A stretch of DNA of 64,000 nucleotides from Phycisphaerae bacterium (GTDB lineage: Bacteria > Planctomycetota > Phycisphaerae > Phycisphaerales > Phycisphaeraceae). Every line of letters starts with the position of its first letter. The first letter of the stretch is position 1. Location of the stretch: NCBI GenBank assembly GCA_030432595.1, contig JAUIGU010000005.1, positions 62,001 to 126,000 on the forward strand, written 5' to 3'. Position numbers and translations under genes: made by a program. This document shows, piece after piece, positions 5,797 through 42,066 of this stretch. The notes below the pieces were generated by a model, which made no database searches, had not been told where the DNA came from, and saw only the letters and a list, made by a program, of their open reading frames with translations.

Positions 5797-5816
5797 CCAA
5801 AGCCCCACATGCCTAC

Positions 5817-5870
5817 TTAGACCCCGGCGAGTCGCCGGGGGCCGGCCCCGGGTGACTCACCCGGGACTAA
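5817..5870. repeat. Palindromic doublet (REPIN-like), family C
   Basis: Two hairpins stand head to head. CCCCGGCGA-G-TCGCCGGGG (5822-5840) and CCCGGGTGA-C-TCACCCGGG (5847-5865) are both perfect. The flanks TTAG and CTAA and the central GGCCGG junction are symmetric, so the second unit is an inverted, diverged copy of the first with a compensated stem. It lies 20 bases after the pyrE stop. Confidence 0.75.
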
Positions 5871-5890: not shown

Positions 5891-6310
5891 TGTCGCTTTC
5901 CTGCGCACGCTTGGCCCGAAAGTTCGTCGCGTCAACTTGACGTGCGGGTAAAATACAAGTGCGAGTGAAGGGCGTGGCCTCCGCGTGGGTGCCAGGTGGG
6001 TGAGGGCTTGAGTTCCTTAATCACGAATCGCCGTGTGGCCTTGGACGCGGGTGGGTCGGGACGGAACCCGACGACACGCCGCCTCCCGCCGGAACCCCCC
6101 GAGTGAGTCCCATCCGAAACGCGGTGACGGCGGGTTGCAAAACCGACGCCGGCTGGGGGTCTGTGGATCGCGACGGCGGTCCCGCCCCGGGTTTGTTTCG
6201 AAGCGAGTCCAAAGCGAGCCGGGCCGTGTCGGCCCGGGTTCCGGACACCGGGCCGACACGGCCCGGCTCGCCAGAGGCGCACACGGCGTTCTTTCACAAG
6301 TGAATCCGAG
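5891..6310. repeat. Long dispersed structured repeat, copy 1
   Basis: About 420 bases matching 40600-41018 in the same orientation. By eye the core (5972-6210) differs at roughly 15 positions, mostly transitions, with one small length difference. Shared blocks include the start TTCCTGCGCACGCTTGG, a TTGAC-N-TGCGGGTAAAAT segment, a GTCGGG/CCCGAC stem whose six-base loop differs between copies, and a terminal hairpin pair. Here the pair (6214-6237 and 6248-6271) forms a perfect 24-base inverted repeat around a 10-base loop, and each arm is itself a hairpin (CCGGGCCG-TGT-CGGCCCGG). The minus-strand frame is open in both copies but changes amino acids freely, so protein coding is unlikely. Confidence 0.85.
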
Positions 6311-6334
6311 GGGCGTTGTCGTCCCCAAAATTCG

Positions 6335-6403
6335 TCCGTGCTTTCATGCACGGATAGCCGGAACCCGGCGGGTTCCGGACCGGGAGCCGCCGGCTCCCGG
6401 CTG
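6335..6403. repeat. Hairpin cluster with family E palindromic doublet
   Basis: A stem TCCGTGC/GCACGGA (6335-6354) is followed by two perfect hairpins, GGAACCC-GGC-GGGTTCC (6360-6376) and CCGGGAGCCG-C-CGGCTCCCGG (6380-6400). The latter two read as head-to-head units of the form AGCCGG-N5-GGC-N5'-CCGG with different but compensated stems. Bases 6404-6546 beyond them hold no gene; they form the leader of the lipoprotein gene. Confidence 0.7.
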
Positions 6404-40533: not shown

Positions 40534-40580
40534 AGCCGGACACGGGCCGCGTCCGGACCGGGACCGGCCCGGTCCCGGTT
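40534..40580. repeat. Palindromic doublet, family E, copy 2
   Basis: AGCCGG-ACACG-GGC-CGCGT-CCGG (40534-40556, one mismatch) stands head to head with CCGG-GACCG-GCC-CGGTC-CCGG (40558-40578, perfect). The flanks and loop match the doublet at 6357-6403 but the stems differ and stay paired. It lies between the channel gene start and copy 2 of the long repeat. Confidence 0.7.
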
Positions 40581-40599: not shown

Positions 40600-41018
40600 T
40601 GTCACGTTCCTGCGCACGCTTGGTCCGGTACTTCGCCGCGGCGTCTTGACCTGCGGGTAAAATGAATACAGCGAGAGTGGAGCGTGGCCTCCGCGTGGGT
40701 GCCAGGTGGGTGAGGGCTTGAGTTTCTTAATCACGAAATGCCGTGTGGCCTTGGACGCGGGTGGGTCGGGATGGAGCCCGACCGCACGCCGTCTCCCGCC
40801 GGAACCCCCCGAGTGAGTCCCATCCGAAGCGCGGTGACGGCGGGTTGAAAAACCGACGCCGGCCGGGGGTCTGTGGATCGTGACGGCGGTCCCGCCCCGG
40901 GTTTGTTTCGAAAGCGAGTTCATAGCGAGCCGGGCCGTGTCGGCCCGGATGCCGGACACCGGGGTGACACACCCCGGCTCGCTCAGAAACGCACACGGTG
41001 TTCTTTGACATGTGAAGC
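40600..41018. repeat. Long dispersed structured repeat, copy 2
   Basis: Same orientation as 5891-6310. The left terminal hairpin (40925-40948) is identical to copy 1, while the right one (40959-40982) reads CCGGGGTG-ACA-CACCCCGG where copy 1 has CCGGGCCG-ACA-CGGCCCGG: four changes that preserve every pair. As a result the long 24-base stem of copy 1 is broken here in its middle, but the small hairpins and the outer GCGAGCCGGG/CCCGGCTCGC pairing remain. The 663 bases 40471-41133 contain no recognisable gene. Confidence 0.85.
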
Positions 41019-41059
41019 AGGGGCGTAAGGAGCTCCACCCACGCAGAGGAAGAAACAGA

Positions 41060-41133: not shown

Positions 41134-42066
41134 TCAGGCGCGCCGCGTTTGACGGCGGTGGCGCAGCGCGGCGGGGAGCAGAAAGACCGCGGCGGCGGGT
41201 TCGGGGACTGCGCCGCCATTGAAACCCGGCGCGGCGCTGCTGCCCCAGTTGAGCAAGACGCCGTCGAGTTCGCCCTGATCGACGAGGCCGGTGGGCAGGT
41301 CGTTCGTCCAGCCGGGCGGGGTGTTGCCGGTCGTGTCCGTGCCCCAGTTCTGGAGCACGAGGTCCAGGTCGCCCTGCTCGACCTGCCCGCTGTTGTTGTA
41401 GTCGCCCGTCAGGGACGCGGCGTCGTAGACGTAGGTCACCTTGATGAACGAGCCCGCCTTGAGCGCGCCGGTGACGCTCGCCGGCGCGATGGTGATGCGG
41501 GCGTTGGCGTCGCCGTCGTAGGTGACGCGGACCGTCGGGTCGCCCCCGCCGCCGGGCGCGACGAAGGCGTCGATCCACGCGGGCGCCGCGGTGCCGGGAA
41601 TCAGCATGTCGACGTTGGCGATGTTGAAGGGTGCCGTGAACACCTGCGGCGGCGCGTTGTGGTCGTTGGTCCCGGTGCCGTTGCCGCCGCCGTTGCCCGA
41701 GAAGATGAGCGCGTCGTTGATCTTGAGCGTGCCCGAGCTGTTCAGGCCGCCGCCGGCCTGCCCGCCGAACGACTCGACGGCGAGGTCGAAATCGAAGAAG
41801 TGCTCGACGTCGATCCGGGTCAGCTCGCCCAGCGCCGGGTCGAACCGGTCGAAGGTGGCCGACAGGTCCAGGTTGCGCGTTGCGTCGGCGGTGACTTCGT
41901 CGAAGAGGGTCTCGGCCGGGACGGAAACGGTCTGCGTCAGTTCGGCGCCCATCGATGCCGCGGTCGCGCCACCCAGGACCAGCGCGGCCGCCGCGATGAA
42001 CGCACGCCGGCCGGACCGCACGGGGGCGGTGACGCGTTGGAGGGTTTGAAGTTTTTTGGAGGTCAT
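41134..42066 (-). CDS. PEP-CTERM protein with dockerin-like repeats
   Basis: A 310-residue exported protein. The signal region (RRAFIAAAALVLGGATAASMGAE) is followed by a beta-rich domain of about 170 residues with Gly/Asn-rich loops (GNGGGNGTGTNDHN), then a pair of dockerin-like calcium loops (GDYNNSGQVEQGDLDLVLQNWG and TGLVDQGELDGVLLNWG) and finally VPEPAAAVFLLPAALRHRRQ, a PEP-CTERM signal. Dockerin-like pairs are common before PEP-CTERM tails in planctomycetes and may bind cohesin-like partners. The start MTSKKLQTLQ was chosen; 27 upstream codons look non-coding. Confidence 0.78.
   Translation of the reverse strand: MTSKKLQTLQRVTAPVRSGRRAFIAAAALVLGGATAASMGAELTQTVSVPAETLFDEVTADATRNLDLSATFDRFDPALGELTRIDVEHFFDFDLAVESFGGQAGGGLNSSGTLKINDALIFSGNGGGNGTGTNDHNAPPQVFTAPFNIANVDMLIPGTAAPAWIDAFVAPGGGGDPTVRVTYDGDANARITIAPASVTGALKAGSFIKVTYVYDAASLTGDYNNSGQVEQGDLDLVLQNWGTDTTGNTPPGWTNDLPTGLVDQGELDGVLLNWGSSAAPGFNGGAVPEPAAAVFLLPAALRHRRQTRRA

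Follow-up and report, generated by a model that had tools for sequence, protein, structure and literature searches.

The stretch analysed here (the window) comprises 64,000 nucleotides from a Phycisphaerae bacterium (GenBank assembly GCA_030432595.1, contig JAUIGU010000005.1, positions 62,001 to 126,000), whose genome amounts to 4.39 Mb in 73 contigs. It contains two copies of a non-coding repeat, which a first-pass annotation had placed at 5891-6310 and 40600-41018. Both are present, and the conserved unit is slightly larger than was noted then, running from about 5898 to 6326 in copy 1 and from about 40607 to 41035 in copy 2, with 88% identity between the two across its whole length. Read from left to right, it comprises an upstream block and a leader that varies among copies, followed by a 147-nt 5′ domain of several helices and a 3′ domain whose helices include a GNRA hairpin; an expansion segment and a 3′ module complete it. 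Both copies belong to a structured RNA family that is new, evolves fast, and is present in many copies in a genus of Phycisphaerae.

A genome search for further copies, as had been proposed when the pair was first described, found at least 44, the two in the window included. The 25-mer GCGTGGGTGCCAGGTGGGTGAGGGC, with up to three mismatches allowed, gave 44 genome matches, 38 of them exact, and none on the reversed control; BLAST scored 40 copies. All 44 were extracted with their flanks for analysis. Contig ends cut four of them and several more lie near contig ends, where repeats are expected. Complete copies are 68-94% identical in pairwise comparison (mean 85%). Every copy is intergenic according to a codon-usage gene caller, and the flanks are unrelated, as had been noted of the original pair. 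No functional theme was seen among the neighbouring genes scanned, which include those for DnaA, LytB, transaldolase, glycosidases, and an M50 protease. Copies are divided 23 to 21 between the strands, and a convergent gene faces the RNA 3′ end in 24 of 35 scorable copies, a mild bias.

Selection acts on the fold of this RNA. In the 5′ domain of 39 aligned copies, standard pairs occupy 98.4% of paired cells, compared with 96.1% in shuffled alignments and 35-47% when the structure is slid; cells altered on both sides number 64, compared with 17.5 after shuffling. None of 500 column shuffles attains the observed covariation score of 0.141 (shuffled value 0.092), and slid structures score 0.03-0.05, three to five times lower. 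On the tree of copies, 39 compensatory double changes were counted, compared with 2.2 ± 1.4 (maximum 6 in 200) under a null in which substitutions were reshuffled within branches, and 10-12 different pairs carry two-sided changes. Variable pairs include 243 G-U and only 25 A-C cells, and the functional molecule is therefore the + strand RNA. The tetraloop is GAAA, GCAA, or GGAA in all 40 copies. The GTCGGG/CCCGAC stem, now P6, had been reported as kept while its loop varies, and this was confirmed on a larger scale: the apical hairpin occurs as 33 haplotypes in 40 copies, with the stem largely paired and a loop of the form A-N-GGA-N.

Two outcomes had been named in advance as fatal to the structural claim, namely random variation in the hairpins and a conserved protein, and neither was seen: the covariation exceeds all 500 shuffles, and no reading frame is shared among the copies, which leads us to reject a protein-coding explanation. 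Compensatory changes, the GNRA loop, and the G-U/A-C polarity thus bear out the conserved structure, and the element is very probably an RNA. One argument first offered for it has lost its weight. The right hairpin does change from CCGGGCCG-ACA-CGGCCCGG to CCGGGGTG-ACA-CACCCCGG between the two copies, but it is the second of two palindromes in the expansion segment that resemble repetitive extragenic palindromes (REPs), and it is weak evidence because long-range pairing of this segment is no better kept than in the null (one double change versus 0.2; 36 breaks versus 39 expected).

The ends of the unit are also conserved. A TAAAAT-type box (T-N-N-AAT, with variants TAAAAT, TAGAAT, TACAAT, and TATAAT) is present in 44 of 44 copies, preceded in 40 of them by a TGCGCACG (TGCGCA) box at a distance of 47-48 nt. 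A genome search for the upstream block returned 40 matches, all in front of family RNAs and none elsewhere, and the block is a putative promoter. The TTGAC...TGCGGGTAAAAT stretch previously suspected of being a promoter does exist and is conserved, yet its spacing is not that of a sigma-70 −35/−10 pair, in which TTGACA and TATAAT lie 16-18 nt apart: TTGAC and the TAAAAT box are separated by only 6-7 nt. At the other end, the 3′ module follows the pattern CACGGYGTTCTTTSACAWGTGAA...GGGGCGT..CCCC in two variants, with a REP-like twin palindrome most often next to it; no consistent link between leader type and 3′-module type was seen by eye. The expansion segment is swapped for unrelated hairpins in five copies. 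Coordinates are collected in Table 1.

Table 1. Positions of the parts of the element and of adjoining sequence in the window.
Feature	Coordinates	Strand	Details
Copy 1, conserved upstream block, promoter-like	5898..5954	+	TTTCC; TGCGCACG box 5902-5909; TTGACG 5937-5942; GCGGGTAAAAT 5944-5954
Copy 1, variable 5′ leader	5955..5969	+	variants GTAAGTGCAGGTGAA / GAATACAGCGAGAGTGGA among copies
Copy 1, 5′ domain of RNA (modelled as R1)	5970..6116	+	alignment A1, pair counts
P4 hairpin CACG-AANYGN-CGUG	6022..6035	+	two pairs altered on both sides
P6 hairpin, hypervariable compensated apical stem	6043..6086	+	hexaloop ANGGAN 6061-6066; A-N-GGA invariant in 39 aligned copies
GNRA-tetraloop hairpin	6128..6151	+	GCAA at 6137-6140; GAAA/GCAA/GGAA among copies; compensated pair
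Hairpin GGATCGCGACGGCGGTCC	6165..6182	+	one compensated pair
Expansion segment	6200..6272	+	AGCGAGTCCAA repeats and two REP-like palindromes (6219-6237, 6248-6266)
Conserved 3′ module CACACGGCGTTCTTTCACAAGTGAA...GGGGCGTTGTCGTCCCC	6280..6326	+	common to sister species
Downstream hairpin CCGTG..CACGG and REP-like twin palindrome	6335..6402	+	accompanies most copies
Copy 2, conserved upstream block	40607..40663	+	TGCGCACG 40611-40618; GCGGGTAAAAT 40653-40663
Copy 2, 5′ domain of RNA	40680..40826	+	covariance model R1, 175.5 bits (G000:C70:102680-102826)
Copy 2, 3′ domain and 3′ module	40827..41035	+	TTCTTTGACATGTGAA at 41001

Searches with blastn and covariance model R1 in 51 genomes of the family and 397 of the class suggested that the RNA is restricted to one species. 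This restriction is rejected on the evidence of a second genome of the same genus (G001), of which about 1.1 Mb, roughly one quarter, was read. A weak 39-nt match there led to locus L161, which has the landmarks in matching order (CTGCGCA box, GGGTAGAG, GAGTCCCGTCCGAA, TTCTTTGACAAGTGAATCAGGGGCG), and the DNA read contains 10 strongly diverged copies in two subfamilies, a number pointing to a few dozen genome-wide. A profile built from the G001 copies alone found all 40 complete copies of the window genome, each in its correct position (E ~1e-3 to 1e-9), with no other match in the window or the 44 flanking loci, and the copies of both species are on this ground firmly one homologous family. Seven G001 copies retain an intact left end, and in all of them a TGCGCA-like box stands exactly 28 nt before GGTAG. 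An apical helix of the G001 RNA is independently compensated (five of nine pairs changed on both sides; 0/500 shuffles); the homologous hairpin region of this genome lacks the ANGGAN loop. Around copy 1, corresponding DNA of the two species shows mostly 77-83% identity, so that evolution of the RNA is much faster between species than inside one. Four other genera, sampled over about 0.35 Mb, and older loci yielded REP palindromes only and no homologs, and given this rate of divergence such absence calls are not evidence of absence. All 10 G001 copies lie on the + strand of their contigs.

Positions of the RNA differ between the two species. At six sites (L063, L075, L089, L095, L099, and, at 613 bp, L088) a gene that neighbours a copy has an ortholog in the G001 DNA read, and the RNA is not there; in one other comparison (L078 with G001 L203) both genomes have it on the same side of one gene, but 2.5 kb further off. 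The sites compared are thus not common to the species; the element acts like a sequence that either moves or is acquired and lost again, and it is probably mobile. Within the window genome, r2 between variants falls from 0.34 at 5 nt or less to 0.14 at 20 nt, 0.06 at 40 nt, and about 0.03 beyond, the last value being near background for 40 sequences. This decay is best explained by exchange of short tracts among copies, with recurrent mutation within hairpins contributing. As a separate observation, the genes upstream of two RNA copies (L088 and L089) are direct neighbours in the sister species (G001 L189 11026-14284), and a rearrangement breakpoint therefore falls at RNA copies. At copy 1 of the window, too, local synteny is interrupted, on the pyrE side.

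The reading we favour, with a probability of about 0.62, is that these are stand-alone folded non-coding RNA genes that spread as a unit and are homogenised within a genome. Each copy would be a gene of its own for a folded + strand RNA of ~340-390 nt, with its own conserved promoter-like upstream block and conserved 3′ module. The data argue strongly for spread of the copies as a unit, actual movement of the unit being likely, and equally for their homogenisation by short-tract exchange within the genome, which would make species diverge while copies stay alike. The RNA may perhaps act in trans, as RNA or as an RNA-protein complex, and its conserved ends might be recognised by transcription and/or mobilising machinery; candidates are the TGCGCA box on the left and UUCUUUSACAAGUGAA with its hairpin on the right.

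Several points weigh against this reading. Target-site duplications were not found (shared flank words 5.85, versus 5.87 ± 0.13 shuffled); terminal inverted repeats are absent, the left end CTGCGCACG and the right end ...GTCCCC not being inverted copies; no transposase or reverse transcriptase is linked to copies among the 20 neighbours scanned; and no pair of copies is near-identical (maximum 94%). For these reasons transposition is not demonstrated, and ordinary duplication and loss could be the source of the turnover of positions. The original proposal of a structured RNA or a non-autonomous mobile element finds support in both halves: the RNA half in the compensatory changes, the GNRA loop, the G-U/A-C polarity, and the lack of a conserved frame, the mobile half, by inference, in dispersed copies with unrelated flanks at different sites in two species. 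With regard to the fold, copies exchange tracts, and in some of the 39 compensatory events a hairpin compensated earlier has probably been passed on; original events would then be fewer, and the count of 10-12 different two-sided pairs is the safer number. In a strict all-pairs G-test scan with average product correction only two pairs reached E<0.05, of which one belongs to the structure. That test counts any covariation, and the two alternative 3′ modules dominated its signal; compensatory events were counted instead. Helices P1, P2, and P5 are almost invariant within the species, and covariation neither supports nor refutes them.

A possible alternative, to which we assign clearly less weight, is that the host encodes a regulatory RNA acting in trans, which may for instance titrate an RNA-binding protein such as CsrA through its ANGGAN hexaloop, and which ordinary duplication, not mobility, has multiplied to raise its dosage. 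An A-N-GGA hexaloop on a varying, paired stem is the textbook form of a CsrA site, and here the loop is invariant on a stem that varies freely yet stays paired; the fold and upstream block are also kept in every complete copy, the absence of any pair above 94% identity implies no recent burst, and the downstream gene is convergent in 24 of the 35 scorable copies. This explanation is at odds with the sites, which are not common to the sister species, and with the loop itself, which is not seen in the homologous hairpin region of G001. The decoy RNAs CsrB and RsmZ resemble the family in having such a hairpin, but they carry many sites, whereas each RNA of this family has a single ANGGAN loop.

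Derivation from a mobile element that uses an RNA guide (an omega RNA, bridge RNA, or similar, from elements without an open reading frame whose protein is encoded elsewhere) is improbable. The RNAs known as HEARO or OMEGA, which serve IsrB, IscB, and TnpB of the IS200/IS605 superfamily, are likewise structured, linked to mobility, and bounded by conserved element ends, and the L. maxima HEARO RNA, at 343 nt, has a comparable size and ornateness (PMC12286853). The combination of conserved ends, a diverging interior, and turnover of sites would also suit a guide RNA, as would the REP palindromes that accompany most copies. IS110-type elements favour such palindromes. Neither the window nor the G001 loci match HEARO or any other family in Rfam, however; conservation runs from the upstream block through the 3′ module and leaves no obvious guide segment; and the 20 neighbour proteins scanned include no IscB, IsrB, TnpB, or IS110 protein. 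A repeat that exists purely at the DNA level, of the REP, BIME, or miniature inverted-repeat transposable element (MITE) kind, with palindromes that only resemble RNA hairpins, is considerably less probable still. REP-like palindromes do occur inside and behind most copies, but as interchangeable modules and not as the conserved core; the excess of G-U over A-C cells is polar with respect to strand, GNRA loops are present, compensated helices lie outside the palindromes, and the element lacks terminal inverted repeats and target-site duplications. That the family is an artefact, whether a repeat due to assembly or contamination or a fast-evolving protein gene, is hardly credible: several copies do lie at contig ends, as repeats tend to, but they differ from one another by 6-32%, have unique flanks, share no conserved frame, and have a homologous family in a second genome.

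Known families offer partial likenesses to the stand-alone RNA genes we favour. MITE-type intergenic repeats of bacteria with transcribed RNA structure include ERIC, NEMIS/Correia, CIR, and YPAL/RU (PMC2229807). Like the present family, they form dozens of dispersed intergenic copies with stable RNA folds and need no protein, and three marks of a MITE (dispersal, lack of an open reading frame, and differing sites between relatives) are found here. They are, however, long simple stem-loops of ~100-200 bp with terminal inverted repeats and target-site duplications, often transcribed within neighbouring mRNAs, whereas the present RNAs are multi-helix structures of 340-390 nt with a GNRA loop and their own upstream block. 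OLE, ROOL, and GOLLD are also large RNAs recognised by covariation (PMC12286853), but ROOL and GOLLD are borne by phages or prophages, while this family consists of dozens of chromosomal copies, and none of the three match it. The earlier statement that no known RNA family fits was upheld, as Rfam 15 has nothing above gathering threshold in the window (the sub-threshold matches are mostly to GC-rich palindromes) and nothing for the G001 RNA loci. A group II intron was rejected for want of an Rfam group II match and since the RNA, with its variable 5′ leader, does not begin with GUGYG. Plasmid, phage, and viral collections gave no match; the one exact match in the GTDB genome set, a 19-mer in Actinoplanes, is due to chance, with no R1 match. 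No description of the family was found in the open-access literature.

No match in Rfam was obtained for these non-coding RNAs, which combine their size and high copy number with an upstream signal of their own, turnover of positions, and homogenisation. Because of concerted evolution, ordinary homology search can hardly detect such families, even between sister species: blastn and the covariance model scored G001 as empty despite the ~10 copies in the quarter read. Other families of this kind may for that reason be common but have escaped notice. Should spread be driven by the RNA itself, the family would count as a novel type of RNA mobile element in bacteria. We regard as unlikely, though worth stating, that it represents a new class of this sort, in which a structured RNA without a protein, under its own upstream signal, is spread by trans-acting machinery that requires its fold, reaches dozens of copies, and is homogenised in each genome.

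Other repeats occur around these copies. Twin palindromes of the REP-like kind are also found at 5812-5865, 6357-6402, and 40537-40580 of the window; they occur in both orientations, their GC-rich stems are interchangeable, and similar palindromes are present in related genomes. Just 3′ of three RNA copies (L066, L080, and L085), each at a contig end, the same insertion sequence (open reading frame start MERKIFRFLLDHFDR) enters at the identical point of a REP-like palindrome, and it is thus a REP-targeting element. A second intergenic palindromic repeat of ~87 nt (L085:2951-3037, L104:3445-3531, L066:2802-2890, and G001 L164) shows ~80% conservation across the two species, well above that of the RNA itself. 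Adjoining copy 2, window positions 41187-41406 hold the C-terminal coding stretch of a PEP-CTERM-type gene, which matches ~40 places in G001 at 72-84% identity and marks a large family of probably secreted proteins with one common tail.
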